NCBI GenBank assembly: GCA_025526915.1
Contig: JAHLKH010000269.1
Span: 1-27,307 of the forward strand
Direction of reading: 5' to 3'
DNA: 27,307 nucleotides
From: Entophlyctis helioformis
Lineage: Eukaryota > Chytridiomycota > Chytridiomycetes > Chytridiales > Chytriomycetaceae
The notes under the pieces are model-generated. The model was not told the DNA's origin, made no database searches, and was given only the letters and a program-made list of their open reading frames with translations. Each line of letters opens with the position of its first letter. Positions within the stretch are counted from its first letter, which is position 1. Shown one piece after another: positions 3,715 through 27,307 of this stretch. The translations under genes were made by a program, and so were the position numbers.

Positions 3715-6700
3715 ATGCCCGAGGACAAAAAGGAAGACGACTCCAAGGGCAAGAAGGGCAAGGATGGTGAGGGCGACGATGCCCCCGTTGCCATCCCCAT
3801 CGACGCCCGTGTCATGTGGTTCGAAGAAAAGGTCTGCAGTGCTCTCAAGATCAAGAACGACAAGTGGAAGAAGCTCACCAGTCTCAACGAGAACGTGTAT
3901 GTTATCTGCTCGATCAGTCAGACAACATCAACCATTTGCTACAGACCTTCATTTGCTGTCATGCCATGCCATAGTCGCTAACCATCTGCTTGCTACTACC
4001 GCCACTTTTCACCCCCTTCACCCCCTTCCACTACTTCCAACCACCTTCCACCACCTTCCATCTCGACTGTCTTTCCAGCGAGATTATCTACAAGTTCCTC
4101 GACAAGGAGTACACCACCATTCTGTTCTACCTCAACCAAAAGGAGGAGCTGTTTCCTGCCATTGATTTCCCGTCGCAGCTCAAGCGGAAGTCCATATACT
4201 TCCTGAAGAAGCGTCCTGGCGCGCAAATCACCGAAAAGCTCGACCAAGAGCTCATTCTGGGCGATCTGTCCGCCAATCCACTCGAATTCCTGTCCACAGT
4301 CCTCGAGGAGGTCTATCTGCCGCTGCTTACCAATCCAAAGAACCTCGAGTCCTGGCCCGAGGTTGTTGCCAGCGACGTGTTGCGCCACTTTCACCAGCTC
4401 AATGGTGCCGTTTGTGTCATTTCTGGCAAGGCAAAGGTATGTTGGAGTTGCCCATGTGCATCACGCATCATGACGATCGAACGCCATCCTTGATTCTGAC
4501 ACTGTGTTCTATTGCATCATGTGCTTGCATTCAATGTATTCGCACTTTCTGCAGGGTAAAACCATGCTGCCTCTGCCTCACGGCGCCAAGCTTGCATCTG
4601 AAAGCGACAAGACAATCCTTCACACCCTAGAGTCTGCCGTCATTGACTGGACGCACCAGATCAAAGAGGTCATCAAGAGCAACTCGTCCGCGCCGCTCGA
4701 AGAGGGACTCAACCCTGGCCCGACCATGGAGATTGACTTTTGGGCTGCCAAGGCTGCCAATCTCAAGTCGATCCACCAGCAGCTCACAGACGAGAAGATC
4801 CAGAAGATCTCAAAGGTTCTTCAGCTGAGCAAGAGCACGTACTACCCTGCTTTCCAGATGATCTTTGACGAGGTCGTCTTTGCCCTCGAAGAAGCAAGCG
4901 ACATCAACACATACCTCAAGGCTCTGCGTCCTGTGGTCGAGCGCCTCACGGGTGCTGGCGAGCTGTCCGAGCTGTCGCAGATCTTCCCAGGACTGATGCA
5001 CACGCTGCTCATGATCTGGAAGTCGTCCAAACACTACAACACTCCGAACCGCCTGACGGTCGTGCTGCAAGAGTTTTGCAACGACATCATCGAGCAGGCA
5101 CGCAACTTTATCCAGCCCGCCGAGCTGTTCAACTCGGAGCCCGAAGAAGCCGCCGAGCGTCTTCGCCTGGTGCTGCGCATCTGCGAGTCATTCAAGGCAA
5201 CCTACTTTGAATGCAAGGCTGGCACCATGGAGTCCAACCGTCCCTGGAACTTTGACTCAAAGCTCGTCTTTGGCCGTCTTGACAGTTTCCTCGTTCGCGT
5301 CCAGCAGATCCTCGAGCTGTTTGAGACCATTATTGAGTTTAACCGTCTCGAGAAGATTGAGATTGGTGGCACAAAGGTAAGCACCGACTGTACTCGTGGC
5401 TCTTCTGCTTGTTGCCCATTTGCCGTTTTACTAATCTGATACTGCGCAACTGCCCTGGCACCATCTGATCGTCGTCCAACGCGTATCAGGGCAAGATTCT
5501 GAGTTCCCAGGTCGTGCAGATCTTCACCGAGTTTACTGGCGTTTTGAGCGGCTTCAGCAAGCTCAAGTACGATGTGCTCAACATTGCACTGCCAGACTTT
5601 GACGTGGACCGCAACGCTTTCCTCGAGAAGATCACCGACCTTGATCGTCGCATTGGGTGAGTATTCCCGCTGCTGCTACTACTATACTCTGATCTTGCCA
5701 GCTTGCGATGCTTCCTGTGCGTATCGCTGCTGACGCCAACTGCATTACTTGCTCTCTTCTCGCATGCCAGCACGATCCTGTGTCAGGCATTTGACGACTG
5801 CTCTGGTCTCTACTCTTGCTTCCGCCTGCTCGAGTCCTTCTCCGGCCTTCTCAACCGCAGCCATATCCAAAAGGACTTTGAGCTAAAGTACTTTGAGCTG
5901 CTCAAGATGTACTCGCAAGATCTCGAGGACGTGTCGGTGATCTTCCTGCGGTACCGCGACAACCCGCCGATCCACTACAACATGGCGCCTGTCACTGGTG
6001 CGGTTGCGTGGATCCATGAGCTAAAGGACAGAATCTCCAAGGCGATGGACAAGCTCAAAAGCGTATGTGCTGGCATCATGCCCTATTCCAACACTGTGCA
6101 ATGCGTGGGCGACAAGACACTCACAGTCTTGGCATCTGATCCACTTCCACTTTGCAACACTGCAGCTCAACCACGCAGTCATGAACACCGACGAGGCGAA
6201 CGGCGTCAAGAGCAAGTACAATGAGCTCATGGAGGCGCTAGAGACGTATGAGCAAGGCGTGTTCAACCGATGGAAAGACACGATCATTGACGAGTCCGAT
6301 GCCAACCTCAACAAGCCCATCCTCATCCGCGAAAAGAATCTGCTCAAGGTCAACTTTGATCCAAAGGTCGTCGCCCTCTTGCGCGAAGTCAAATATTTCG
6401 GCGCGCTCTCTGTACAGCCCCCGCCCGCCGCTGTAGATATCTACTCCAAGGCCGAAACGTTCCGCAAGTACATATTCTCGCTCGAAAACATCGCAAACAT
6501 GTACAATGGCATTCGGACCGGCGTTCTCGATGTTGAAAAGCCGCTCATCGAGGAAAAGATCAGGCAAATCGATGGCCAGATCGAAGTTGCAGTCTCGTCG
6601 CTCAACTGGAAATCTGATACAATCGACACATACATCACCGACATCTCGGGCACGGTCGGCAATCTTTCTTCGGTTCTCCAGAACATGAAAAACAACCTCG

Positions 6701-9700
6701 ACCAGATCACCAAGATCCTCAAAGTGTGGTCGGCCACGCCGCTTCTCGAACGCAAGGACGGCAAGAAACTGCTCAATCTCGAGGAAAAAGACGCCAAGCT
6801 TGCTATCGCCAATGACAGCATCCGCAAGGACGGCAAGACGATCATTGATCTGGTTGAGCAGACGCGCCAGCTGGTCGAGGCATCATCCGAGAGCGACCAA
6901 TGGGCAAGATACCGCCAGTATGCCGACACGATCGTGCAAAAGGGCTTTTGGACAACCATCAAGTCGAGCATGGAGTACATTCTGCAAAACATGGAGAAGG
7001 ACCGCGCTGCAGAGGTTGGCCCTCTCCTCGAGGCCAAACTGGAGCTGGAAAACGAAATGCTTGTCTACACGCCCAGCATGGAAGAAGGTAACTGCGTACC
7101 ATGTGCTCGCAGTTTAGCATCGCATTAGCACAGGACTAACCATGACCGTCTCACACGTGTTGTTGCGTGACATCCACCATCCCTCCATCAGACTCTGCCG
7201 AAGGCCTCATGTCAGTCATGGAGTCGCTGCTCGAAGACATCTACGACGTCTCGTCTCTCATGCCCCGCGTTGCCCCGATCGCCGCTGAGAAGGCGCCGCC
7301 CCCACCAATCCGTGTCGAGGCCGAAAGTGGCAATGGTGTGTCATCTGCTGACGAGTCTCCTGACGGTCCAGAGCCATCCAGCACGGAAAAGGAAAAGGAT
7401 CTTGCTCTCAAGGCGATGGAGAACGAGACGTATCTCGGCGAGATGCGCCAAGACGAGACTCTCGACAATCTTCGCGTCGCGATTATTGAGCGTGTCCGCG
7501 CGATCATGGAGAGCTGCTCTGCCTACAAGGACGGCTACGAGCAGTACACGTACCTGTGGACGGAGAATCGCCAAGAGTACATGAAGCAGTTCCTGCAGCC
7601 GGCCGACAAGGGCGAGGAGGGCGACAACGCAGCCTCGTCGGGAGAGGAGGAGCAGCAACCTGTCCAGCTTGAAAAGTTCGAGGCGGAGATCCGCAAGTTC
7701 GAGGGCATCCACAAGACCGTGATGGCGATTGAGCCGGAAGTCATCTTCATGGGCTGGTTCCGCGTGGATGCACGTCCGCTCAAGCAGTCTCTCAACGTCG
7801 TCGTCAAGAAGTGGAGCTACACGCTGACCAAGCACCTCTCTGACGACACGGTCGCGACCCTCAACGAGCTCAACAGCTTCATCAAGCTCAACAAAAAGGG
7901 TCTCCAGGGCAAGATCGAAGAGGGCGACTACAATGGTCTTGTGGCAGCCATGGGTCTCTTGCACGCGATCAAGCACCGGACAGGGAGCATCGACAAGATG
8001 TTTGAGCCTCTTCGCAAGACCGTCAATCTGCTGCGCCAGTTTGGTGTTGAGCTGCCCGAAGAGATCCACAAGCTGCTAAACGACCTGCCCGAGGAGTGGT
8101 CCGAGGTCAAGAAGCTGTCCGTGTCCATCAAGGACCACGTCGCCCCGCTGCAAGCCAAGGAGGTCGACGTGCTGCAGCAAAAGTGTAACCGCTTCGAGAT
8201 GAAGAACCACAACTTCCGCGAAGAGTTCCGCAAGAAGGCGCCGTTCAAGTTTGACGTCGGCCCTGACCACGCATACGAGCTTGTTGATGTGGCGCACTTT
8301 GACGTGTTCGCCATGGAGACGGAGGCCACGGCGCTCAAGAAGTCGTGCGAGCTGTTTGAGCTCAACGTGCCCACGTACCGCCAGCTTGCCGACTGCCGTC
8401 GCGACGTGGGCATGCTCAAGAGCATCTGGGATCTTGTTTCGCTTGTCACGTACATGTTTGGCCAGTGGAAGACAACGCTGTGGACCGAGATCGACACCGA
8501 CTCGATGGAAAACCGTTGTCGCGATCTGTCCAAGGAGCTGCGTCGCATGGACAAGGAGATCAAGGGCTGGGACGCCTACGCCGGCCTCGACCAGATGGTC
8601 AAGGACATGATTACGAGCTTACGCGCTGTTGGCGAGCTGCGAAGTAACGCTATCCGCGACCGCCACTGGAAGCAGCTCATGAAGACCACGGGCGTGACCT
8701 TTGTGCTCACCAAGGACATGAAGTTCCAAGACCTGCTCAGCCTTCAGCTCCACAAGTACGAAGACGACGTCAAGGTCATTGTCGATCGTGCCACCAAGGA
8801 ACTGGCCATGGAAAAGGTGCTCAACGATCTCGACAAGACGTGGGCGGTGCTCGAGTTCACATACGAGATGCACGAAGCGACCAAGACGCCGCTCCTGCGC
8901 AGCTCCGAAGAGCTCATTGAGACGCTCGAAGACAACCAGGTCATGCTGCAGAACATGATGACGTCCAAGTACGTGGCTCACTTCGAGGAGCAGATCACCA
9001 AGTGGCAGATTGCCCTCTCGACCGTGGACTCTGTCACGACACTCTGGCTCGAAGTGCAGCAGACATGGTCCACCTTGAGAACATCTTCATGGGCTCCGAG
9101 GACATTCGCGCACAGCTGCCCGAAGACTCGCGTCGTTTCGACAGCATCGATGCCAGCTACAAGGTGCTCATGCAAGAGGCGCAAAACACACCCAACTGTG
9201 TCAAGGCGTGTACCAAGGAAGGTCTTTACGAAAAGCTCGAGCACCTCCAGGGCCAGCTTGCTCTTTGCGAGAAGTCGCTCGCAGAGTATCTCGAGACCAA
9301 GCGTCTGGCATTCCCGCGTTTCTACTTTGTGTCTGCGTCAGACCTGCTTGACATTCTTGCCAAGGGAAACATGCCGCAGGAGGTCGCAAAGCATCTCTCC
9401 AAGCTGTTTGACTCTGTCTCGCGTCTCAAGTTCCTTGAAGGTCCCAACGGCGAGATGACCAAAACGGCTGTGGGCATGTACTCGCGCGAGGACGAATACG
9501 TCACCTTTGTCGAAAAGTGCGAGTGCACTGGCCCCGTCGAAGTGTGGCTCAACCGTCTTGTCGACAGCATGCGCATGACGCTCAAGCAGCTGCTCGGCGA
9601 GGCCGTCGCATCGTACGAAGAAAAGCCGCGTGAGCAGTGGATCTTTGACCACCCGGCCCAAATCACGCTGGCCGGCACGCAGATCTGGTGGACGACCGAA

Positions 9701-12700
9701 GTCAATGTGGCGTTCAGCCGGCTTGAAGAAGGCTACGAGAACTCGCTCAAAGACTACTACAAGAAGCAGGTCAACCAGCTCACTGCGCTCATCAGCTTGA
9801 TCCAGGGCGAGCTGACTGGCGGAAACCGTCAGATGATCATGACCGTCTGCACACTCGATGTGCACGCTCGTGATATCGTTGCCAAGCTCATCGCCGAAAA
9901 GGCCGAGAACGCGCAGTGTTTCGGATGGCAGTGCCAGCTGCGTCTCAGATGGGACGATGTCGATCAAAACGACTGTTTCATCAACATTTGTGATGCTCTC
10001 TTCCGCTACAACCACGAGTATCTTGGTGAGTCGATTTCATGCTGAATCTACTGGCACTCTGCCACTCTGACTGACAGCGCTGTCCTTGCTCCCCTTCTTC
10101 TTCCATCTGCCAGGCAACACGCCACGTCTTGTGATCACTGCTCTCACCGATCGCTGCTACATCACCCTTACGCAATCACTCCACCTGATCATGGGTGGCG
10201 CACCCGCTGGTCCCGCCGGTACTGGCAAGACGGAGACCGTCAAGGATCTGGGCAAGGCCTTGGCGATCATGGTTTATGTCTTCAAGTAAGATCCGATATT
10301 CCAGGCCAAGGGAAAGACTGCCAGTGACTTACCCTCCGTGCATGAATACAGTTGCTCAGAGCAGATGGACTACAAGTCGATCGGCAACATCTTCAAGGGC
10401 CTGGCACAGTCTGGCGCTTGGGGATGCTTCGACGAGTTCAACCGCATCGCCGTCGAGGTGCTTTCCGTCGTGGCAACACAGGTCAAGTCGATCCAGGACG
10501 CTCTGCGCGCCAAGAAGAAGCGCTTCATTTTCCAGGGCGAGGAAATTGGTCTGGTGCGCACAGTTGGCGAGTTTATCACCATGAATCCCGGTTACGCCGG
10601 TCGCACTGAGCTGCCCGAGAACATCAAGGCCCTGTTCCGCCCTTGCTCGATGGTCGTGCCCAACCTCGAGCTGATTTGCGAAATCATGCTCATGGCCGAA
10701 GGTTTCATCGAAGCCAGTTCCCTTGCGCGCAAGTTCAACACGCTGTACAAGCTCAACCGCGAGCTGCTGTCCAAGCAGGACCACTATGACTGGGGTCTGC
10801 GTGCCATCAAGTCTGTGCTCGTCGTCGCCGGCTCGCTCAAGCGTTCCGATCCCAACGTCCCTGAAGAGCACGTGCTCATGCGTGCTCTTCGTGACTTTAA
10901 CTTGCCAAAGATTGTCACGGACGATCTGCAGGTCTTCCACGGCCTCATTGGCGACCTGTTCCCCAAGGTCGAGGTGCTCCGTAAGCGCAACGAGAAGCTC
11001 GAAGACGAGATCCGCAAGGCAACCATCGAGCAGGGTCTGCAGGCCGAAGACATTTTCGTGCTCAAGGTTGTGCAGCTCGAGGAGCTCATGGCCGTGCGTC
11101 ACTGCGTGTTCATTATCGGCAACAGTGGCACAGGAAAATCGCAGATCTGGAAGATGCTGTCCAAGACCTATGTCAACATGGGCCGCAAGTGTACAACGTC
11201 CGATCTCAACCCGAAGGCGGTCAGCACGGACGATCTCTTTGGATGCATCAACCCGTCGACGCGTGAGTGGAAGGACGGCCTGTTCTCGTGCATTCTGCGT
11301 GAAATGGCAAACGCGCCGGGCACGGACCCCAAATGGATGATTCTCGACGGTGACATTGATCCCAACTGGATCGAGTCGCTCAACTGCTTCCCGGCAACCG
11401 ACCATGAAGTCTTGACTGCAGAGGGCTTCATGACGCTCGCCGAAGTACAGCGCCACTTTAAGCAGCACGACACACTCGAGATTGCCTGCTACGTGGACGG
11501 TCGTCTGGAGTACCACGCCATCACAAAGGACAAGTTGACGATCAAGACGGGCCGTCACACGCTTGTTGACTTCAAGGGCAGAGCGGCTGTGCACAAGGAT
11601 GCGCGTCTGGAAAGCCGCACTGTGTGCAACAACGTGGATCTCAGTCCAACCGCCAACCACCGCATGTACGCCATGGTTGCACCAACCAGGCAAAGTGCCA
11701 GCGGCCAGCGGAAGTGGCGCACCGATGCCAACAGCCCGCCTGCATACCGCATCCTCCGCGCAGACGAGGTCGTCGCAGCCGGAGAGCAGGACGAAAGCAC
11801 GGTGGCACAGCTGCGCACCAATGCCGAGCTCGGATTCATGCCGGCGCAGGACGATCTGCTGTCGCTGCCATTCATGGATGCGCTTGGTCTCAAGACGGCA
11901 GAGCAGGCGTACGCGTTCCTCGAGCTGTACGGCTACTGGCTCGGCAATGGCCATCTCGGCTCTACCCAACGTGGTGTATGCTTTGCTGTGGCCAAGCCTC
12001 GCGACTGTGCATACCTCGAAGGACTTCTCGCTGCTGTTGGACTGCCGAAGCTCAAAGATGCTCCACGGGCAGACCGGGATATGACCGAATGCGATGGCTA
12101 CTTCAAGTGCTCGGCACGTTCCAGCGGTCAGTGCTCGTTCACCATCACTGCGCGTTGCTGGTGGACCTACTTTGCTCGCCAGTACGGCCACAAGTACAAG
12201 GGCTATTGGTGCGAGGTCGCTGCACTGGAGGGAGCACTGATGCGTGGCAGCGGTGTTCCGCTCGGACGGTACAGACCAGCGGTGCCGGCAGAGAGTGTCG
12301 AGCAGCAACTGGCTGATCTGCTGCTTCGCGGCCCACCGCACCTTGCCAAGGACGCAGAGAACAAGCCGCCAGAGTCTTCTCAGCAGCGTCCTCCAGCCAA
12401 GCGTGTTGCATCTGAGCCTAGTGCAGATGCTCCGTGCAAAGCCAGACGCGTTGATGTGTTGGCGACGATTGCGCGTCTGCATGACACGTCCATGTCTGAG
12501 CCGTCGCCTCCGGCTGCAGAAGACGTCAAGTCTGTCGATTGGTTCTGGTACTGGGTGCATCGCCATCTGAGCGGCGATGCGCTCCGGGCCATTGTTCGCG
12601 GTCTCAAGTGCGCCGACGATCACACGCTGCAGGCTGCAATGCCAACGACAACCGCCGTCAAGAGAGCGACGACTGCATCGGCACGTCGTCTGCGAGATTC

Positions 12701-15700
12701 CGTGACGAGCTTACTCGCGTGCTGTGCTCGCTGGCTTCTCGACGCACTTTGAGCTGCAGTCACAATATGGCGATCACCAGGACGGCATCAAGCAGTGCGC
12801 GGTGCCCATTGCTACATCAGCACTCCACTGGAAGGTGTGGTTCAGCGACAAGCCGCAAGACGCGCAGCCGCAGCTTCACGTCCGCGACGAGTGCACAACC
12901 AGGACATGGAGCGGCACCGTGTGGTGCGTGACGGTGCCCACGAAGCAGAACCTCATCGTGTTCCGTCGCGTGCAGAAAACCGCGCCAGACGGCACGGTCC
13001 TTGCAGCATCGCGGCCAGTGGTCGTTGGCAACACGGTCATGGACGACAACAAGATGCTCACGCTTGCCAGTAACGAGCGCATTCCACTCAAGAGCTACAT
13101 GCGTCTTGTCTTTGAGATTGGTAACCTCAAGTATGCCACGCCTGCCACGGTCTCGCGCGCTGGTATCCTGTACCTCAACACGACGGATCTGGGCTGGAAT
13201 CCATACGTGCAGTCGTGGCTTGAGAAGCGCGAGGATGCCGCCGAGCGGTCCAGCTTGTCAGTTCTTTTTGACCGCTACGTCAACCCATCTCTCGAGGCAG
13301 TGCGCTCTGGCCGCTTCAAGATGGCCAACGTCGAAGAGTTCTCGATGGTTGCAGCCCTGTGCAACATCCTCGAGGGACTGCTGACGCCTGTAAACACACC
13401 AAAGGGCTGCGACAAGGAATGGTTTGAAATCTACTTTGTCTTTGCGGCGGTATGGGCCTTTGGCGGCTGTGTCTTCCAGGACCAGCTTGTCGACTACCGC
13501 AACGAATTCAGCAAATGGTGGAACTCTGAGTTCAAGGTCATCAAGTTCCCGCCGTCAGGCACTGTGTTTGACTACTACGTCGAGACCGAGACCAAGCGGT
13601 TCCTGCCCTGGACCGACCGCGTCCCTGTCTACGAGTATGATTCGGAGATGCCGCTGCAGGCCGTGCTTGTCCACACACCAGAGACGACGCGTATTCGTTA
13701 CTTCTTGGACCTGCTTGCAGACAACAACAAGCCAGTGCTGCTGATCGGCAACGCAGGCTGCGGCAAGACGGTGCTCATGCAAGACAAGCTCAACTCGTAT
13801 GGCGAGGACCGCTTGATTATCAATGTGCCCTTCAACTTCTACACAACCGCCTGGTCTCTGCAGGCTGTGCTCGAGAAGCCGCTCGAAAAGAAGGCTGGCC
13901 GCAACTACGGTCCTCCGGCAACAAGAAGATTGTGTACTTCTTGGACGACCTCAACATGCCCGAGGTCGACAAGTACGGAACGGCCAGTCCGCACACGCTG
14001 CTGCGTCAGTTCCTTGACTACAGACACTGGTACGATCGTGCCAAGCTCACGCTCAAGGAGATCCACAACTGCCAGTACGTGGCGTGCATGAATCCCACGG
14101 CCGGCTCGTTCACCATCGACCCGCGTCTGCAGCGCCACTTTGCCTGCTTCGCAGTCAACTTCCCTGGCGTCGAATCGCTCCAGAGCATCTACTTGCAGAT
14201 CCTGTCTGGCCATCTCAAGCCATTCCCGCCCTCGCTGCAGAAGCTGGCGGAACGTATCGTGACGGCATCGCTGATCTTGCACAAGAAGGTTGCATCGACA
14301 TTCTTGCCAACGGCTGTCAAGTTCCACTACATTTTCAACCTGCGAGACCTGAGCAATATCTTCCAGGGCATCCTCTTTTCGACCAAGGAGAAGATCAAGG
14401 ATACCATCGATCTTGTCCGCCTGTTTGTACACGAAACGACGCGCACATACGGCGACAAGATGGTCGAGGAGGGTGATCGGCAGACGCTCGTCAAAATCCA
14501 AGAAGAGATTCTCAAGAAGAACTTTGAGGACATGGACCAGGCGGCAATCAAATCAGAGCCCAACGTCTTTGCGCACTTTGCAGGCGGTATGGGCGAGCCC
14601 AAGTACGGCCAGGTCAAGGACTGGGCTCAGCTGCGCAAGCTTCTTGACGAGGCACAGTTGCAGTACGAGGAAGTCAACGCCGCCATGAACCTGGTGCTCT
14701 TTGAAGACGCCATGAGCCACATTTGCCGCATCAACCGCATTCTCGAGTCTCCTCGTGGAAACGCGCTCCTGGTCGGTGTCGGTGGTTCAGGCAAGCAGTC
14801 TCTGTCGCGCATGGCCGCATTCATCTCGCAGATGGATGTGTTCCAGATCACGCTGCGCAAGGGCTACGGCTTGGGCGATCTCAAAACGGATCTCGCGAGT
14901 CTGTTCGTCAAGACGGGCCAGAAGAAGATGCAGATCATGTTCCTGCTGACCGACTCGCAGATTGCCGACGAGAAGTTCCTTGTGCTCATCAACGACCTGC
15001 TCGCGTCTGGCAACATCCCCGGTCTCTTCCCCGATGAAGAAGTCGAAGGCATCATCAACTCGATGCGCGGCGAGGCCAAGGCACAGGGCCTGGTGGATAC
15101 GCGCGAAGTCTGCTGGGACATCTTCATTCGCCTTGTACGCCGCAACCTCAAGGTCGTGCTGTGTTTCTCGCCCGTCGGCAACACACTCCGATCGCGCTGC
15201 CGCAAGTTCCCGGCCATTGTCAACTGCACCATGATTGACTGGTTCCAGGAATGGCCAGAGGAGGCGCTGACGTCTGTCGCCAACCGCTTCATCTCGTCCT
15301 TTGATCTCGTGTCTGACTCGCTCAAGGTGCCAGTCACCAAGTTCATGTCGTTTGCACACATGGGTGTGAATGCCATCTCGCGCAAGTTCCTGCTGAACGA
15401 GAAGCGCTACAACTACACGACGCCCAAATCGTTCCTGGCTCTCATCTCGCTGTACAAGGAGATGCTGGAAAAGAAGGCACTTGAGCTCACCAAGAGCATG
15501 GATCGTCTTGAGAACGGTCTAACGAAGCTGCAGGCGACTGCCGGCCAGGTGGACGATCTCAAGGAGAAGCTCGCGACGCAGGAAGTCGAGCTCAAGTCCA
15601 AAAACGAAGAGGCCAACAGGCTCATTGAGCGTGTTGCTGTCGACACGGAAAAGGTCAACAAGGAAAAGGCGATTGCTGCCGAAGAGGAGAAAAAGGTCGA

Positions 15701-18700
15701 CGTCATCACCAAGGAGGTTGGAGAGAAGCAAGCGTCTTGTGAGAAGGATCTGAGTGCTGCCGAGCCCGCTCTCGCCGCTGCGTCTGCTGCCCTCAACACG
15801 CTCAACAAGGCCAACTTGACGGAGCTCAAGTCGTTTGGCTCGCCCTCGGAGGAAGTCAAGAACGTTGCCGCTGCGTGCATGGTGCTGCTGAGCCCGCCCG
15901 GCAAGATCGCCAAGGACCGATCGTGGAAGGCTGCCAAGAACATGATGGCCAAGGTCGACGCGTTCCTCGAGTCGCTCATCAACTTCAACAAGGAAAACAT
16001 TGACCAGTCCAACTTGGACGCCCTCCAGCCGTATCTCGCCGATCCCAACTTCAACGAAGAGTTTATGCGCAGCAAGTCCATGGCCGCCGCCAGTTTGTGT
16101 GCCTGGGCCGTCAACATTGTTGCCTACTACCACGTGTACTGTGACGTCGAGCCCAAGCGCAAGGCCCTCGAGGCTGCCAACGCTGAACTGATGTCATCTC
16201 AGGCTCGTCTGCGCGACATTCAGTCCAAGATCAGCGAGCTCGATCGCAACTTGGGCGACCTCCGCGCCAAGTTCGAAAAGGCGACGGCTGACAAACTCAA
16301 GTGCGAGGAAGAAGCCAAGAGCACTCAGGAGACCATCGTGCTTGCCAACCGTCTCGTCAACGGTCTTGCCTCTGAAAAGGTTCGTTGGAGCGAGGCTGTC
16401 GGCCGCTTCAAGGAGCAAGAAAAGACGCTTGCCGGCGATGTCCTAGTTTCGGCTGCGTTTGTGTCGTACGTCGGTTGTTTCAGCAAGCGCTACCGCGAGG
16501 AGCTGCTCAACGACAACTGGCTGCGGTACTTGCGCGACGAAAACAACGCATTCCGTGTCCCTCTCTCAAGCGATGTCGACCCGCTCGGCATCCTGACCAA
16601 CAGCGCTGAAATCGCCAAATGGAACAACGAGGGTCTGCCGACGGATCGCGTGTCGCTCGAAAACGCCACCATGGTGACGAGCTGCAAGCGATGGCCCCTC
16701 ATCATCGACCCGCAGCTGCAGGGCGTGACATGGATCAAGAACCGCGAGGGTGCCGGTCTCAAGGTCGTGCGTCTCGGTGCTCGTGGATACCTGGATGCCA
16801 TCGAAAAGGCAGTGTCTTCCGGTGACGCTGTGCTTATCGAGGACATTGCTGAGAGCATCGATCCTGTGCTCAACCCGCTGCTTGGTCGCGAGACCATCAA
16901 GAAGGGTCGCTACATCAAGATGGGCGACAAGGAGGTCGAGTACGACCCCCGCTTCAAGCTCATTCTGCAGACACGCCGCGCCAACCCGCACTACCCGCCC
17001 GAGATCCAGGCCCAGACAACGCTCATCAACTTCACCGTCACTCTGGCGGGTCTCGAGGACCAGCTGCTGGCCGACGTCGTTAACATTGAGCGTCCTGATC
17101 TCGAAAAGACAAAGGCGGATCTGACCAAGCAACAGAACGAGTTCAAGATCAAGCTGACCGAGCTTGAAGATGCCCTGCTGTCGCGTCTCTCGGCTGCCCA
17201 GGGCAACTTCCTTGGCGACACGGCTCTCGTCGAGAACCTCGAGATCACCAAAAGCACGGCCACCGACATTGAGCAGAAGGTCGAGGAAGCCAAGCGCACA
17301 GAAAAGAAGATCAACGAGACGCGTGAGCTGTACCGTCCCGTCGCCGCTCGGTCGTCGCTCCTGTATTTCCTGCTCAACGACCTGTGGAACATCCACCCCA
17401 TGTACCAGTACTCACTTAACGCGTACAAGGTCGTGTTCAAGAACGCCATCAACCGCGCAGACGCCAGCGAGGACATCAAGGAGCGCGTGCTGCTTCTTAT
17501 TGACTCGATTACGTTCATGGTCTTTGTGTACACCACGCGCGGCCTGTTTGAGCGCGACAAGCTCATCTTCACGGCCCAGATGTCGTTCCAGATCCTGATT
17601 GCATCAGGCGACATTGAGTACCAGGAACTCGACTTTCTGCTGCGCGGTCCTCGTGCGCTTGGTGTCAACAGCACGCTCGAGTGGCTCTCTCAGACCTCTT
17701 GGGCTATGGTCAAGTCGCTCTCCAACCTCGAAGTCTTCCGCACGCTTGCCTCGGACATTGAAGGCTCGTCCAAGCAATGGAAAAAGTACTGCGAAAACGA
17801 GTGCCCAGAAAACGAAAAGTTGCCACAAGTAAGCAAGCAGTGATTGCGTGCATCTCGTGCATGTCGTTGGTGCATGGATAGATGGACGGATGGACGGACG
17901 GACGGATGCACTAACACTCGCGCAATGGCATATCCACTCTGGCTTGTGTGCCATGTGCACGGCACGTAGGAGTGGAAAAACAAGACGCCTCTCCAGAAGC
18001 TGTGTATTCTGCGTTGTCTGCGTCCCGATCGCATGACCTATGCCGTGCGCAACTTTGTCGGCATGAAGATGGGCCAGCGCTACATCGAGGCAGCGCGTGT
18101 TCCGCTCGCAAAGTCGTTTGAGGAGTCTGCCCCCGCAACGCCCATCTTCTTCATCCTGTCGCCCGGTGTGGATCCCGTCAAGGAAGTCGAAGCCCTGGGT
18201 CGCCAGCTGGGCATCTCTGAGGACGCGGGCAACTTCCACAACGTGTCGCTCGGACAGGGCCAGGAAGTCATTGCCGAGCAGAAACTGGACATTGCGTACA
18301 AGAACGGCGGCTGGGTCATGCTTGAAAACATCCATCTGGTCGCCAAGTGGCTCGCGACGCTTGAAAAGAAACTGGAGGCTCTGTCGACCGGTGCCCATCC
18401 CGACTTCCGCGTGTTCCTGTCTGCCGAGCCTGCGGGTGATCCAGCATACCACATCATCCCCATCTCGATCCTGCAGGCATCGATCAAGATCACCAACGAG
18501 CCGCCAACAGGCATGCAGGCCAACATCCACCGTGCGCTGGACAATTTCTCGCAAGAGTCGCTCGAGCGCTGCTCCAAGGATGCCGAGTTCCGCGCCATTC
18601 TGTTCGCCCTCTGCTACTTCCATGCCGTCGTGCTTGAGCGCAGAAAGTTTGGCACCCAAGGCTGGAACAAGCCATATCCCTTCAGCACAGGCGACCTGAT

Positions 18701-19907
18701 GATCTCGAGTGATGTGCTGCTCAACTACCTCGAGACGTTCGCCAAAGTGCCCTGGGTTGATCTGCGCTACATCTTTGGCGAGATCATGTATGGCGGCCAC
18801 ATCTCGGACGACTGGGACCGTCGGCTGTGCTCGGCGTATCTCGATGTGTATCTGCGCGAGGAGCTCTGCGACGGCAACTTTGAGCTCGCGCCAGGATTCC
18901 AGGGACCGCCGTCCTCCGACTACAAGGAGTACCACCGATACATTGACGAGAATCTGCCGGCAGAGTCGCCCAACCTGTACGGTCTGCATCCCAACGCGGA
19001 AATTGGTGTGCTCACCAAGATGGCCGAGAAGCTCTTCAAGACCATTCTGGAGATGCAGCCCAAAGACGCTGCCGGTGGCGCTGCCTCGTCCAAGGAAGAA
19101 AAGGTCAAGGCCGTGCTCGACGAGATCATGGAGAAGCTGCCAGACAGTTTCAACGCTCAGGAGCTAATGGCCCGCGTCGAGGAGCGCACGCCGTACATCT
19201 CCGTGGCCATCCAGGAGTGCGATCGCATGAGCATGCTCACCACAGAGATCCGCCGGTCGCTCAAGGAGCTCGAGCTCGGTCTCAAGGGCGATCTGACCAT
19301 CTCTGAAAACATGGAGCTTCTCATGAACTCGCTGTACATGAACGAGATCCCGGCACGATGGGAGAAGCTCGCGTATCCGTCTCTGCAGCCCCTCGGCTCG
19401 TGGTATGGCGACCTGCTCCAGCGCATCAAGGAGCTGGAAGGATGGGTGGCCGAATTCAATCTGCCCTCGGTCGTCTGGCTGCCGGGCCTGTTCAACCCGC
19501 AGTCGTTCCTCACTGCCATCATGCAGACGACTGCCCGCAAGAACGAGTGGCCTCTCGATCGCATGGTCCTTACGGTCGATGTCACCAAGAAGGCACGCGA
19601 AGAGTTCTCGGGTGCTCCTCGCGAGGGTGCTTACGTCCACGGCATGTTCATGGAAGGCGCACGCTGGGATACCGGCACCGGCCTGATTCAAGAATCGCTC
19701 ATGAAGGAGCTCACGCCGCCCATGCCGGTCATTTACATCAAGGCAGTCCCAATCGATAAGCGCGAGACCAAGGGTGTGTACGAGTGTCCCGTCTACCGCA
19801 CGCGCCAGCGCGGCCCGACCTTTGTCTGGACATTCAACCTCAAGACCAAGGAGCGTCCGCAGAAATGGATTCTTGCTGGCGTTTGTCTGCTGTGTTCTGC
19901 TGAGTAG
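3715..19907 (+). CDS. Axonemal dynein heavy chain, outer-arm beta type (DNAH9/11/17-like), interrupted by an intein
   Basis: The motor subunit of flagellar outer-arm dynein, an ATP-driven minus-end microtubule motor. Exons: 3715-3896, 4079-4436, 4555-5376, 5490-5656, 5771-6062, 6166-7087, 7192-10025, 10114-10285, 10352-17828, 17970-19907, all with GT-AG introns of 66-182 bp. The coding sum is 15164 nt; four missing bases (near 9070, 12630, 12727 and 13918) restore one frame of 5055 codons, or 4505 without the intein, the usual family size. Order: charged N-terminus, tail domain 1 (about residues 190-590), linker (about 1180-1600), then the AAA ring. P-loops are GPAGTGKT (AAA1, 10209-10232), GNSGTGKS (AAA2, 11118-11141), GNAGCGKT (AAA3, 13747-13770) and GVGGSGKQ (AAA4, 14775-14798). 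AAA1 Walker B is FDEF. The coiled-coil stalk and microtubule-binding domain lie at about 15460-16390 ([29 protein letters not shown]). The C-terminal cap ends [19 protein letters not shown]. The AAA1/AAA2 and C-terminal wording fits beta-type chains best. Confidence 0.96.
7288..7680 (+). other. Two acidic low-complexity inserts in the dynein tail
   Basis: Within exon 7, one stretch at about 7288-7400 is rich in Pro, Ser, Asp and Glu ([19 protein letters not shown]). A second at about 7605-7665 ([17 protein letters not shown]) interrupts otherwise conserved tail sequence. They keep the reading frame and are probably disordered loops specific to this lineage. I see no domain in them. Confidence 0.6.
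9066..9074 (+). other. Apparent one-base deletion in dynein exon 7
   Basis: The conserved frame reads VQQTWS up to 9071. The family continuation [13 protein letters not shown] appears in another frame from 9071. One extra base in the CC at 9070-9071 (TGG TCC CAC CTT) joins them exactly. No GT-AG intron fits here. Confidence 0.88.
12615..12645 (+). other. Apparent one-base deletion inside the intein, first
   Basis: The endonuclease frame ending [11 protein letters not shown] stops resembling the family here. The family-like [15 protein letters not shown] (about 12672-12720) lies in the frame reached by one missing base. The exact site cannot be fixed; one added base near 12633-12635 would join them (LQ then CNAND). 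Confidence 0.75.
12706..12735 (+). other. Apparent one-base deletion inside the intein, second
   Basis: FRDELTRVL and the following [15 protein letters not shown] block are in frames differing by one missing base, best placed around 12725-12730. Without correction the frame used upstream of 12620 ends at a TGA at 12750-12752, so no full-length dynein would be made. Confidence 0.78.
13911..13922 (+). other. Apparent one-base deletion in dynein AAA3
   Basis: The frame reads GRNYGPP up to 13916, and the conserved continuation [17 protein letters not shown] is in the next frame. One extra G in the GG at 13917-13918 restores PPGNKK, the wording expected after the AAA3 P-loop. Confidence 0.88.
17876..17908. 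repeat. GGAT/GGAC tetranucleotide microsatellite in the last dynein intron
   Basis: Imperfect GGAT/GGAC units lie within intron 17829-17969. The intron is bounded by GTAAGC and GTAG and joins KLPQ to EWKNKTPLQ, so the repeat is noncoding. Confidence 0.75.
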
Positions 19908-21873: not shown

Positions 21874-22106
21874 AGGTTCATGTCATGCAAGTGGTTGTGG
21901 ATTGATGGATGGCCGGCTGGATGGCTGTCTGGCTGGCGAGAGGCGGGCAGATGGCTTGGACGCTTGATTGCTTGGCTGGCAACTCGCCGACTCGAGCCAA
22001 TGCGCAGCGACGCGGTTGAAGTGTCGCGCTTTGAGGCTGACGCTGGACGCGTTTCGAGGGTCGTGGCACTTTTCTTGTTGCCCAACAGCAGCGACAAGGG
22101 ACAGTC
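21874..22106. promoter_or_regulatory. Divergent upstream region of stomatin and ankyrin genes
   Basis: These 233 bases lie between the possible stomatin start at 21873 (-) and the ankyrin start at 22107 (+). They hold GGATGGC/GGCTGG imperfect repeats at about 21902-21990. No TATA box is evident. Confidence 0.45.
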
Positions 22107-23581
22107 ATGCACGACGAGCCACGGCGCTCAAAGCGGCTCAAGACGCCGCAATCTGTGGAGCAGCAGCAGCAACAACAGCAACAGGATGGCGACACTGCTG
22201 GCAGCGACAGCGACAACCACAACCGCAGCAGTCATGCAGTCGATGGGCACGGCAGTGATGATGATGCTGGACAGCTGCCGCCGTTCCATCTGGGCGGTGG
22301 CATCTGGGACAGGCTGTTCATTGAGCTGCGACTGATGGTGCTGGACCATACGGGGCCGCTGACCAAGTTCCTGCTGGGCCACCACCACCAATGCAGCTGC
22401 CAGCCAGCCGCTCGCCGAGCATCCAGTGTCAACCGCCACAGCCGCCACAAGCGACTCGAACGACTCGAGCGAGTCGAGCAGAAGCGGATGCCATGCCGCA
22501 CGGCGGTAGCACGATCAGAACAAGCAGAGCCAGCACCAACGCTCGCCTGCCCACACACGCCCAGGCTCGACAGGGCAGCACAGCATGCCATCTGGTGCGA
22601 CGCATTCCGCATGGACTGGGCGGGCGATCTGGGTCTGCTGCCGCGCATGCTGCCGTCGGCCCGCGAGGGTCTGCTGCTCGTGCGCAGCCGGTCCATGTAC
22701 CGGCGGCTGTGCGTGCGGTTCCCCAGGCTGGCCGAGACCACCACGGCCAAGTTCTGGCACCAGGACAGCAGCAACAACCAGTATGGGCCGCCGCACTTTG
22801 ACTCGACGAACGCGGCATGCCGGCTGCTGCACATTCCCATGCGGCACGGGTGGTTTGATGCGATCGAGGCTGCCCTGTCTGGGGTTGGCTCTTCTGTGGT
22901 TGGCTCTGCTGGGAGTGGCTCTGCTGGCACTGGCTCTGCTGGCACTGGCTCTGCTGGCACTGTTGGAACTGGCACGCCATCGTCGTCTCGATCTCGCCCA
23001 CGGCTCAAGGCACCAGCGACTGCGTCGAACGGCATTGCTGCGCGCGCCATCGCGCTGGCACGGCTGGCGATCGAGTTTGGACACACGGCCACCTGCGGCA
23101 CCTGTGCAGTGCACCCCGCAGGCTGGTCGATCTGCGCCAGTTCCGCATGCTCAAGCACTCTGAGCGGCAGAACCTGGTGACGGATCTCGCCATGGACATG
23201 GCGGCCGAGCATGGCCACCTGGACGTGGTCAGGATGCTGCACGAGGCGGGCAGCACGGCGTGCTCGACAAGAGCCATCGACATGGCAGCCACCCGCGGCC
23301 ATCTGGACGTGGTGCGGTTCCTGCAGCACAGCCGACGCGAGGGATGCACGAGTGCAGCGCTGGCTGGAGCAGCGGCCAACGGACACACGAGCGTGGTGCA
23401 GTTCTTGCTGGACTGCACGGTCAGGCTTGGCGTGCATGGGATTGGTGCCGGTGGCGAGCAAGGCGGCGATGCCTTGGCCGAGATCAGCAGCCATCTGCAG
23501 ACAGCCGCACAGGCAGCAAGCGACAATGGACACGACGAGACAGCCGCACTGCTGGTGCAAGTGCTGAGCAGTCTTGCGTGA
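22107..23581 (+). CDS. Ankyrin-repeat protein of chytrid-like type, with one apparent frameshift
   Basis: One exon; 491 residues if one missing base is restored in the C run at 23114-23117. The N-terminus is basic and Gln-rich (RRSKRLKTPQ, then a Q run). It is followed by an F-box-like lead-in (WDRLFIELRLMVLDHTGPL) and a Trp-rich segment (IWCDAFRMDWAGDLGLLPRM, LLLVRSRSMYRRL), an arrangement I associate with expanded ankyrin families in chytrids. A GSAGT repeat sits in the middle. The C-terminal third holds two clear ankyrin units (AAEHGHLDVVRMLHEAG, AATRGHLDVVRFLQHSR) and at least one weaker one (AAANGHTSVVQFLLD). Such proteins usually mediate protein contacts; if the F-box is real, it would be an SCF ubiquitin-ligase substrate adaptor. 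Specific role unknown. Confidence 0.75.
22902..22961 (+). repeat. Four 15-bp coding tandem repeats (GSAGT)
   Basis: Four near-identical copies of GGCTCTGCTGGCACT (first copy varies at the end) encode a GSAGT linker in the ankyrin protein. A shorter, degraded unit precedes them. Copy number is likely variable between strains. Confidence 0.9.
23110..23120 (+). other. Apparent one-base deletion in the ankyrin gene
   Basis: The frame through LAIEFGHTATCGTC reads on to a stop at 23180 without ankyrin features. The frame with RRLVDLRQFRMLKHSERQNL and the ankyrin repeats is reached by one extra C in the C4 run at 23114-23117 (CAC CCC CGC AGG). Confidence 0.82.
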
Positions 23582-25457
23582 GCGCTGTGTCGTGAGAGCA
23601 GCGTGCTGTGTCGGTGCAGGCGTGCTGAGAGTGCGCAGCATCACGCGACGAGGGTCGCACATTGCCAGGCAGGGCCAGGCAGCCGGCAACAAGCGCGATA
23701 GCAGCCCGCCAGCCATCGCCATCCAGCCAGCCATCCAGCCCGCCATCCAGCCGATATCAACGTGGCACAGCACACGGCACACACAGCACACAGCGCATGG
23801 CACACACCGCACACAGCACACCGCGTGCTGCCAGCCAATCAGCCAGCCAATCAGCCAGCCATCAGCTCCGCATCGTGCGGCAATCGCAGCCTGCAGATAA
23901 CAGACCCCCTGTGGCCGTGGCTCTCTCTCTCTCTGTGTGCGTGGTGTGTCTCTATCTCGTATCTCTCCTATCTCGTGTCTCTTGCCCCCCTCGTGCCTGT
24001 CTGGCAGTCGCCCGTCCAAGTCTCGCCATCCAATGAACCGTCCTTTCACATGCCTTATCTCATGCAGCCGCACGCACATGCCCACACCGCCAGCCAGCCA
24101 GCCCAGCCAGCCAGCCCGTCTCTCCTCTTCACATGCTTCGATCAGAGTGTCCCAAGCGCCGTGGCAGCCGCGTGCAACTCCGAGTCGCCCAATGGCGCTG
24201 GCACCTCCTGAATGCTCAATGGCGCTGACTCCATGACTGCCACGTGAAAGACACGCTCACGACAGCACAGCCAGCCAACAAGCCAACAAAGCCGGCTGGG
24301 CAGCTCGCGTGACTCAACCGACGGGCCGTTGTTCCGCCCACGTGCGCTGATTGCAGCCAAACGCCATCGCGTGACGGCGGCACTGGCGCAGCGGCGTGAT
24401 GCGGACAACAGGGCCGCTGCAGTGACCCGCGCTGCTGATGCTGCCGATGCTGCCGATGCTGCTGCTCCTGCTGATCCTGCCGATGCGGAAGCAGATGGGC
24501 CACGCCGCCATGCCGATAAGCAGCGGGCTAGTCTGCCTGCAGTCTGCCAGTCAGTCTGCCTGCAGCGTGTCAGTATGCACTCGCCCGCCAACTCTCCCAG
24601 CGCATGCAACAAAAACAACGTGCGTGCACCCCGACCGCAAGTGTGCCGGATCATCAGGGTGCCGACCACGGTCATTTGGTTTGGCCCGGGCGAGCCGCTG
24701 AGCCAGCCGCACGAGCGTGCGTGCAGGGCCGCGAAAAATGGCGTCATGCGACGGGCCGCCAGCGAATCAGCAGCCATCGCAGCAGCACGATATCGGCGAA
24801 TGCCGACAGGAGCATGCCGACAGGAGCATGCAAGCGCCGTCACGCGAGCATCGCAGCGGGCGGCCGCCCTTGGCTGGGACATGCATGCGGCTGCAGGCGT
24901 CGAGGTGTGTACCGACCAGCCAACCAGCCGACTACGCACACACGCATGCCATGGGCAGGCAGCAACCAGCAGCCAGCAGGCAGCCAGCAGGCCGCCGTGT
25001 GCCGTGTGCCTGCTGCCCGCCTTGCACCACCACCACCACCACCACCACCACCTCCTCCTCCTCCAGTGCCGCTATCGGCGTATCCCAACAGCCAGCGCGC
25101 AAATTGCTGCCACGTGCGTCTGTCGCGCTCGCCCACTCCGCCCGTCTGGAACAGCCCCGCTCGTATGATTGCGCCATGATTGTGCTGCTGATTGTGCTGC
25201 TCGTCGGCGGCTTGTCGGCGCGGCATATAAAGCGACGGCCCTTTCCCGTCTGCTCCTGCTGCCCCATACTGCTCCTGCCTGCTGCTCTTGCTGCTCCTGC
25301 CATCGGTGCTGCTCCTGCTGCCCACTACTGCTGCCCACCGCTCTCGCTCTCGCCGCCTGCATCCGCATTCGCCCGCTGCCCTTGCCATCGCCCGCCCTTA
25401 TCGCACCACCACCAGCACAGCTCAGCACTCGCCATTCAACCGCCAATCGCTGCCCAC
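23582..25457. other. Long noncoding, microsatellite-rich interval upstream of the bHLH gene
   Basis: I see no convincing gene in these 1.9 kb. Open frames on both strands are long only because GC-rich repeats lack stops. Contents: CCAGCCAT units (about 23710-23756), ACACAGCACAC-like units (23765-23825), CAGCCAAT units (23830-23866), CCAGC units (24090-24115), GATGCTGCC units (24433-24490), CAGTCTGC units (24535-24565), and a CCA/CTC run (25025-25065). It probably includes the ankyrin 3' untranslated region and the bHLH promoter and leader. Confidence 0.6.
25226..25231 (+). promoter_or_regulatory. TATA box of the bHLH gene
   Basis: TATAAA (within GGCATATAAAGCG) lies 227 bases before the bHLH start codon. 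It is the only clear TATA element seen next to a gene start in this window. The sequence after it is CT/GCTCCTG-rich, typical of a leader. Confidence 0.55.
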
Positions 25458-26532
25458 ATGACCTGCAACGCATCCGTCCACTCTGCCCACGCTGCCATGC
25501 CTGGCTTCGGCCCCTCGCTCGGCTTCTTCCCACACGCACACCAGGCACACGCACACCAGGCATCCGCCGCCTCGTCGCCCGAATCCACGTCCGTGTCGTC
25601 GCTGTTCTCGTCGCAGTTGCCATCGCAGCACGCTCGCTCGGCCGTGCCCGCTCCTGCTTGTGCCCCTGCCACTGCCACTGCCCTTGCCCCTGCCTCCACC
25701 GCGCATGCATCCACCGGCCGCCGGTCATCGGCAGTCTCCAAGAAGACGGCTGCCTCTGCGGCCCCGTCGTCCACAGCAGCATCCACAGCATCTGCAGCCC
25801 CCACACAAAAGACCGGCCGCCGAGTCGTGCGGTCCAAGGAGGATCGCGAGATGCTGCGCAAGGTGTCGCATTCGGCCATTGAGCGTCGCCGTCGCGAGCG
25901 CATCAACGACAAGATCATGGTGCTCAAGGCCATTGTGCCGGCAACCGTCGACCAGCCCGCGCTGCACAAGCTCACGATCCTCGAGGAGAGCATCACGTAC
26001 ATTGCGCAGCTGCAAGCCAAGATCACCGAGCTGACGGGTCTGCCCATGTGCGACGTTGCGCTGCCCATGGTCGCCTCGTCGTCGTCGTCGTCGGTCGCCG
26101 GCGTGCCTGGACGAGTCGCAGCTGGACCACTCGGTGTCGCCCCTGGCGGCCGCTGCCGACCTGCCAGCCGTTGTCAAGCACGAGGAGGACACGTCCGACT
26201 TCCACGCCGGCTACTACGCCATGCACGGCGACGGCATGGACGTCAACATGCACGCAGCAGCCGCCGGCCGCAGCGACGCCATGGACTACGACGACAGCGA
26301 CGAGGTGTCTGTGGCGGCGGCCACTCTGTTTGCAACGCTGTCTGCATCCTCGTCGTCTGCAAGCGGCCTCGCGTCGTCGCCTGCTGCTGGCACGGCAGCA
26401 ACGCGTGCGTTTGCCGCGCCGCCATCGCCGGCTGCATCGCACGACTCTGCAGAAACCTGCTCGCCGCGGGTGGACAGCACGACTGCGTCCCAGTCGCGGG
26501 TGGTCATGGCGCTCGACTCGATCCTCTCTTGA
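25458..26532 (+). CDS. Basic helix-loop-helix transcription factor (class B, E-box binding)
   Basis: Single exon; 357 residues if one surplus base near 26093-26094 is removed. Residues 1-125 are Ala/Ser/Pro-rich and probably disordered. The bHLH lies at about residues 134-197: basic region SHSAIERRRRERINDK, helix 1 into MVLKAIVPA, a short loop, then helix 2 LHKLTILEESITYIAQLQ. His, Glu and Arg at basic positions 5, 9 and 13 predict binding to CACGTG. The tail is acidic, Ser- and Ala-rich (EEDTSDFHAGYYAM, DYDDSDEVS), plausibly an activation region, and ends ALDSILS. The start at 25458 (MTCNAS) is the first ATG after the TATA box in this frame. The best-known fungal relatives act in lipid or phosphate regulation, but I cannot assign this one. 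Confidence 0.87.
26076..26100 (+). other. TCG trinucleotide run with an apparent one-base insertion in the bHLH gene
   Basis: Six TCG units (poly-Ser) are followed by GTCGCC. The frame used through the bHLH continues as a poorly structured reading. The frame with CLDESQLDHSVSPLAAAAD and the acidic tail is reached if one G at 26093-26094 is surplus. Slippage or consensus error is likely here. Confidence 0.65.
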
Positions 26533-26822
26533 TCGCTGTGCGCATGTCTGTCGGTCTGCCTCTTTCTTCTTCTGTCCATGTCGTTTCTATATCCCCCCTC
26601 TCTTCTGCGTCTTGCATCCATGAGTACATACCACCCAATACAGCATGTTCATTGCATCCATCCATCCATCTATCCAACGCTTTCTGTCTGGTTGTGTTCT
26701 CCTTCTGTGGCAGGCCGAGTGTGGGGCGGGGCGAGACAGATGGATGCTGGTTCATTGCAAGCGGAGAGATACATATCAGACAAGGATGCGGTTGAATGGC
26801 TCGGCGGCACAGTGCACAGTCA
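26533..26822. other. Convergent spacer, bHLH and stomatin copy 2
   Basis: These 290 bases lie between convergent stops. They are T/C-rich just after the bHLH stop, with a CCAT microsatellite near 26658-26675. No gene is seen. Confidence 0.55.
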
Positions 26823-27307
26823 CTAGGAGCTGTTGCCAAACTGCTCGTACAGCTGTGCCTGCAGCATGCTGATCGGCTGGCCGGCTGCTCCCTTGTTGTT
26901 GCTGCTGCTGCTGCCAGCGCCGCCATACGCACCGCCGGCCGCCAGATGCAGCGTTGCTCGTCACGGCGCCGTCTGCGCCAGGCATGAAGATGACCTTGGC
27001 ATTGCCCGACTTGGCCATGTTGCCGAGCGTCTCGAGGTAGCGGATCTGCATGGCGGCCGGCGTGTTGAGGATGTCGGCAGCCTCGCGCATGAGCTTGGCC
27101 GCCTCGACCTCGGCGCGCGCCGAGATGACCTTGGACTCGCCCTCGGCCTTGGCGGCAATCACCTTGCTCTCGCCGATGCGCTTCTGCTTGGCGGCGGCCG
27201 ACAGGTTCTCCTGCAGCTCCTGCGAGAACTGCAGGTCCTTGATGAGGATGCTCTCAATGTGCACGCCCCATGTCTGCGCAGCCGGGCCGATGATGCCCTC
27301 GATCTCG
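26823..27307 (-). CDS. Stomatin-like protein, second copy, 3' part (runs off the window)
   Basis: The end of an SPFH/band-7 protein whose 5' portion lies beyond the right edge. It reads EIEGIIGPAAQTWGV, ESILIKDLQFSQELQE, KQKRIGESKVIAA, LMREAADILNTPAAMQIRYL and ETLGNMAKSGNAKVIFMPG, nearly matching copy 1 in this stretch. Copy 2 has an extra KAEGESKVISARAE segment. After GADGAV the frame open to 26776 becomes Gln-rich. A frame shifted by one surplus base near 26932-26946 gives a Gly/Ser/Asn tail ending SMLQAQLYEQFG with stop at 26825-26823, which resembles the end of copy 1 (TMRDAMLLEQML). I prefer that end; the alternative stop is 26778-26776. Confidence 0.88.

Follow-up and report, generated by a model that had tools for sequence, protein, structure and literature searches.

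Results

The dynein locus and its insert

We analysed contig JAHLKH010000269.1 (C269) of the chytrid Entophlyctis helioformis (assembly GCA_025526915.1) over its full length of 27,307 nt, hereafter the window, and searched the whole genome sequence, 29.57 Mb in 482 contigs, for related loci. The window carries a gene for an axonemal dynein heavy chain whose AAA2 region is interrupted by a putative intein (Table 1). The left flank ends with the codon AAC at 11384; the 1648 bp insert runs on the forward strand from a TGC codon at 11385 to the codons GTT GGC AAC, which end at 13032; and the host sequence resumes at 13033 with ACG GTC ATG GAC GAC AAC AAG (TVMDDNK). The region at the N-extein end is presumably Walker B of AAA2.

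A DNA search of the genome identified two further copies of full element length, one at C118:54978-56627(-) with 98% identity and one at C137:5840-7489(-) with 97% identity. Each is 1650 bp long, equivalent to 550 codons in one stop-free frame, and the frames around them are open for 1558 (C118) and 3139 (C137) codons. The deposited gene model at the C137 locus (P0011, Entophlyctis helioformis BC831DRAFT_55734, whose intein is a 100% match) retains the insert as protein. When the three copies are aligned, near-identity starts at the TGC and stops at the AAC, while the flanks diverge: within 90 bp on each side, bins of 30 bases agree at only 11-24 positions. The ends of the element are therefore fixed independently of motifs or of the reading of open frames. 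These are the same boundaries within dynein that had been given in an original prediction made from the window alone. That prediction had also joined frames to translate the insert and, indeed, compared with its sisters, the window copy lacks a single base at each of two places, just before 12618 and 12725.

Table 1. Coordinates of the dynein gene and of its predicted intein in the window
Feature	Position	Strand	Remarks
Host gene, axonemal dynein heavy chain, DNAH9/DNAH17 type	4504..19898	+	Matched span, several exons and frames
N-extein end, AAA2 Walker B region (presumed)	11340..11384	+	
Putative intein-coding insert, dynein heavy chain AAA2	11385..13032	+	Sister copies 550 codons; here 1648 bp, two single-base deletions
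Predicted N-terminal Hint half: Cys1 11385-11387; block B T89 11649-11651, H92 11658-11660	11385..11864	+	Alignment, structure model; bounds approximate
Predicted LAGLIDADG endonuclease-like domain: motif 1 WLGNGHL (N188 11946-11948), motif 2 GLKCADG (D411 12615-12617)	11865..12822	+	Bounds approximate
Out-of-frame stretch between the two single-base deletions of the window copy	12618..12725	+	
Predicted C-terminal Hint half: block F VWCVTVP (C515 12925-12927), block G PVVVGN (G549 13027-13029, N550 13030-13032)	12823..13032	+	Alignment, model
C-extein start, TVMDDNK...; putative +1 nucleophile Thr (ACG 13033-13035)	13033..13077	+	

Intein residues and predicted fold

Intein blocks A, B, F and G, as claimed by the original prediction, are present and are conserved in relatives of the insert. 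Cys1 and a Thr at position +1 occur in all three dynein copies. We counted conservation at other positions over 35 aligned family rows, leaving out P0009 and the first part of P0006 (truncated), P0011 (the same as the C137 copy), the frame-broken window copy and, by choice, P0014b, P0016b, P0017a, P0019, P0025, P0026, P0031, P0036-P0040 and further weak envelopes; P0041-P0046 were found later and inspected separately. The Thr and His of the block B TxxH motif (T89 and H92) are kept in 34 and 35 of these rows, respectively, and the terminal Asn (N550) in 34, with the remaining row truncated at that point. Block F, which commonly has an Asp, has a Cys; this Cys and the Gly at the penultimate position are features of the intein family.

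The predicted structure has both a Hint fold and a two-motif LAGLIDADG fold, and resembles VMA inteins (PI-SceI/VDE and the archaeal TliVMA and PhoVMA) in overall architecture, with 9-14% sequence identity to them. VMA inteins differ from the dynein intein in their V-ATPase host and in having a penultimate His. The predicted Hint and LAGLIDADG architecture is borne out by this model, by related inteins in Prp8 (see below), and by matches to LAGLIDADG_3 in eight of the 17 sequences that make up alignment A1 (best E 0.00036); the eight do not include the C118 copy.

The insert is under purifying selection. The ratio of nonsynonymous to synonymous substitution rates (dN/dS) is 0.25 for C118 and C137, 0.29 for C118 and the window, and 0.23 for C137 and the window; by domain, it is 0-0.25 in the Hint halves and 0.27-0.35 in the endonuclease part. 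Nonsynonymous changes are below the neutral expectation in the same three comparisons (18 of 40, p 2e-5; 18 of 37, p 3e-4; 21 of 48, p 1e-6), which share data and ignore transition bias. For the Hint halves alone, the corresponding counts are 2/10, 7/16 and 5/14.

Occupied and empty dynein sites

The three host genes are of different types. For the window gene, the best PDB relatives of the piece at 13932-17840 are DNAH9 and DNAH17, followed by chains labelled "Heavy chain alpha" and "outer dynein arm heavy chain beta". The best PDB relative of the C118 host piece is DNAH2, and that of P0011, the C137 host, is a 4583-residue chain that bears the label "Radial spoke head protein 9 homolog"; two DNAH10 chains come next. 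DNAH9 and DNAH17 are outer-arm chains, and DNAH2 and DNAH10 are inner-arm chains.

Searches with the left flank (104 aa) and the right flank (156 aa) each found at least 14 dynein loci, on the same contigs. Three of the 14 are occupied and 11 are empty, so the insert is absent from homologous sites; at the empty sites, codons continue without interruption from Asn to Ser (C57, C90 and C19) or from Asn to Thr (C42, C13, C31, C11, C36, C122, C408 and C60). The sequences around C36:178482, C122:81078, C408:11722 and C60:109912 are identical at 299 of 300 bases, and may represent a single gene on redundant contigs or else a recent duplication into several copies; counted as one gene, they leave eight distinct empty genes. 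Over 40 bp of target, the occupied genes share 28-33 bases with one another, no higher than among the eight empty genes (mean 32.4).

Relatives of the putative dynein intein

Two dynein proteins from outside this genome, P0012 (4374 aa, JGI) and P0013 (2034 aa, ENA), have a related intein at the same site, in P0012 in the context WVESLN/TTMDDNK (the slash marks the insertion point); the corresponding contexts in this genome include WIESMN/TVLDDNK on C118 and WVENMN/TVMDDNR on C137. Both hosts are of the DNAH9/17 type. Local BLAST puts both inteins at 50% identity to the query (for P0013, the alignment covers 59% of it), and in A1 they are 53% and 45% identical, respectively. In a 36-row tree, the five dynein inteins form one clade (100/99) with weak internal order (88/59; 98/45). 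An intein in an axonemal dynein, as originally predicted, is supported; the two further paralogs in this genome and the dyneins elsewhere had been missed.

Fungal nuclear Prp8 inteins at the GNLT/TKPING site (for example P0003, P0016, and P0015 and P0024 from Coemansia) belong to the same sequence family as the dynein insert, sharing with it the CFP..DH start, the TxxH of block B, the VWCVTVP block, Thr at +1 and an endonuclease domain. They differ from the dynein inteins, which form their own clade, in host and site. The Prp8 gene of E. helioformis is empty at the GNLT/TKPING site.

When the C118 intein, P0003 (Prp8) and P0010 (GPHR-like) served as protein queries against the genome, they matched the empty Prp8 gene, the three dynein copies and a fourth intein of 535 codons at C142:42743-41139(-) (locus L037, C142:36500-46400, local positions 4640-6244, minus strand). 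It lies in a 928-aa frame with matches to CCCH and RING zinc fingers, between a Tyr and a Cys of the CCCH finger, in a host that we take to be Cwc24/RNF113-like. Inteins occupy the same zinc-finger site in P0041 and P0043 of Polyrhizophydium stewartii. The C142 and P0041 inteins are of the same family as the dynein intein, with pieces 46% and 33% identical to it and the same end block, but they differ in their site and in having Cys at +1, and C142 has Ser in motif 1. In P0044, an intein lies a few residues beyond the P0041/P0043 site in the same Cwc24-like finger, and ends in Gln (GQ) rather than Asn. Several family inteins can occur within a single protein: there are three in P0014, which we assume to be a POLD1-like family B polymerase, and one complete and one partial intein in P0006, presumably WASH7-like. 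A search of the genome with PF14528 found no further inteins, yet it also missed all four known ones, and others may exist. None of 86 pattern stretches in viral contigs was confirmed by tblastn, giving no support for a viral source.

Discussion

We conclude that the insert is, in all likelihood, an intein with predicted Hint and LAGLIDADG-like domains, located in the AAA2 Walker B region of an axonemal dynein and at the same codon of two further heavy-chain genes, and that it probably splices itself from the precursor. Class 1 splicing steps involving Cys1, the +1 residue and a terminal Asn are established for inteins in general. By analogy, dynein would be translated as a precursor containing the intein; Cys1 would attack the Asn-Cys1 bond, the chain would pass to the +1 Thr, and Asn550 would cyclise, joining the exteins into a normal motor.

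The presence of the element in three paralogs calls for a second proposal. A LAGLIDADG domain aimed at a motif that is kept in heavy chains would explain entry into paralogs at the same codon. We propose that the element homed into the DNAH9/17-type gene by means of an endonuclease that recognised DNA encoding the conserved ESLN-T-DDN motif, with later ectopic entry into the DNAH2- and DNAH10-type paralogs. Since both dynein copies from outside this genome are of the DNAH9/17 type, that gene would be the older host, and the other two would have been entered later, in the E. helioformis lineage. Taken as a whole, we consider it fairly probable that a single nuclear intein, by means of an endonuclease reading the DNA of an obligatory dynein motif, colonised outer- and inner-arm paralogs at one shared codon, so that several of a cell's flagellar motors would depend on protein splicing.

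Several observations weigh against these proposals. The profile search that had been suggested as a check of the original prediction detected neither a Hint nor a LAGLIDADG family in either of the intact copies (hmmscan, Pfam and NCBIfam; only DUF6264, E 0.27), and by that prediction's own standard speaks against an intein. A phmmer search of the PDB with the intein gave no intein chain, only one unrelated chain (E 0.097). An hmmsearch of the PDB with A1 likewise named no intein chain, listing host parts (RFC, RPN11, Prp8 and Mo25) and three weak mannanase rows; we did not use this search because eight of the 17 rows are whole proteins, whose host parts swamped the profile. The penultimate residue is Gly549 in place of the usual His. 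Gly occurs here in 32 of the 35 family rows, and we treat it as a family-wide variant, His being usual rather than defining; PMC6805012, in the part available to us, cites a paper on a DnaE intein with a title that includes "without the penultimate histidine". Motif 1 has Asn (N188) in all three dynein copies where Asp is expected, such that only one of the two LAGLIDADG motifs, motif 2 with D411, retains its acidic catalytic residue. The motif 1 position is Asp in 18 of the 35 family rows, and in both P0012 and P0013. We therefore call the domain endonuclease-like and claim no activity; with its first catalytic Asp replaced by Asn, the enzyme is probably now weak, nicking or dead. An Asn common to three near-identical copies is hard to square with recent homing, and the spread would have either preceded or tolerated this change, unless conversion equalised the copies. 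The flanks have no long co-converted tract, with 15-20 of 30 bases shared at 31-60 bp from the ends and 11-20 of 30 at 61-90 bp, which leaves the recombination route unexplained; flanks that match at just half to two thirds of positions farther than 30 bp out are a difficulty for repair. The Hint halves show less constraint in the comparison of C118 with the window than elsewhere (7 of 16 changes nonsynonymous). Lastly, the window copy is frame-broken.

The broken frame could mean that the window gene has decayed: its frameshifts would be real, its dynein would have ceased to be produced, and the DNAH2- and DNAH10-type copies alone would be live. In addition to the two deletions in the insert, there are two host frame changes without room for an intron, near 9070 (9060-9090) and 13915 (13905-13935). 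Nonetheless, we regard decay as unlikely. All four changes point in the direction of single-base losses, a pattern that would be expected of residual long-read error, and outside its deletions the window intein is constrained like its sisters (dN/dS 0.23-0.29). Stops at 10287, 17841 and 17967 within the matched frames are in stretches that start with GTAAG and have no counterpart in P0012, and are for this reason likely to be in introns. We favour sequence error on a small contig as the source of the frame changes; if they are real, the window gene is broken, and the living cases are those on C118 and C137.

An alternative to recent homing is that the intein entered before the dynein paralogs split, with the likeness of the copies maintained by gene conversion. 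The shared codon fits such a history, as does the motif 1 Asn common to all three copies, which conversion would produce. However, the element is missing from 11 of the 14 dynein loci found, the two dynein copies found outside this genome sit in DNAH9/17-type genes, and there is no converted tract in the flanks; we consider early entry distinctly unlikely. It is very improbable that the intein no longer splices and that dynein functions, or is regulated, with a 550-residue domain in place. The replacement of the penultimate His by Gly would fit such a loss, but Cys1, the block B Thr and His, the terminal Asn and the +1 Thr are all kept, only two of ten Hint-half changes between C118 and C137 are nonsynonymous (against 7 of 16 for C118 and the window), and an insert beside the AAA2 Walker B would be expected to disturb the ring. 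Least credible of all is removal from RNA, as a spliceosomal intron or an introner-like multiplied element with an incidental frame: near-identical copies in several genes do have the look of introners, and the host gene seems to have short spliceosomal introns (GTGAGT...CAG at about 10026-10113, and another starting GTAAG near 17826), but GT-AG, GC-AG and AT-AC ends are absent at the five equivalent boundaries in the window and the four in each sister copy, the 550 open codons are under purifying selection, the insert has intein blocks and a predicted Hint-LAGLIDADG fold, same-site relatives bear the same residues, and the deposited C137 gene model keeps the insert in the protein.

With splicing from a dynein precursor as our preferred interpretation, we consider it very probable that this is an intein in a new class of host, a cytoskeletal motor, and that its distribution across paralogs is unusual. 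Green et al. (2018; PMC5784728), in the portion available to us, list 257 inteins in eukaryotic nuclear and chloroplast genomes, with Prp8, VMA1 and RNA polymerase the leading nuclear hosts, and nuclear hosts functioning in RNA processing, transcription, translation and metabolism. The word "dynein" does not occur in the main text of that survey, although such a host could still be present in its supplement or be the one with its single apusozoan intein. In the part of the literature naming both intein and dynein that was covered, no dynein host is apparent from titles; the wider intein literature, at the level of titles and the starts of abstracts, concerns known hosts, reviews and unrelated work; and a literature search found no papers joining "intein" with Entophlyctis, Polyrhizophydium or Thecamonas. 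Intragenomic spread of a nuclear intein has likewise been reported, for the fungal GLT and CHS inteins, as a transfer between two genes (PMC5784728, same portion). In that case, the genes are unrelated and the inteins have 48.3-56.9% amino-acid similarity, whereas the dynein copies have 97-98% DNA identity and share a codon in three paralogs.

Three occupied and 11 empty sites in the same genome, with targets alike at about 30 of 40 bases, provide a natural test of intein movement between paralogs. Should axoneme assembly require splicing, the motility of zoospores would hinge on it.

Other features of the window

An antisense open frame of 755 codons, at 10356-12623 (-), spans host exon and most of the insert, and is perhaps a side effect of codon use. 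G+C climbs to 63-66% at 22000-27307, downstream of the dynein gene. There is a helix-loop-helix match in the frame at 24717-26795 (+), and a Band_7 match at the window end (-).

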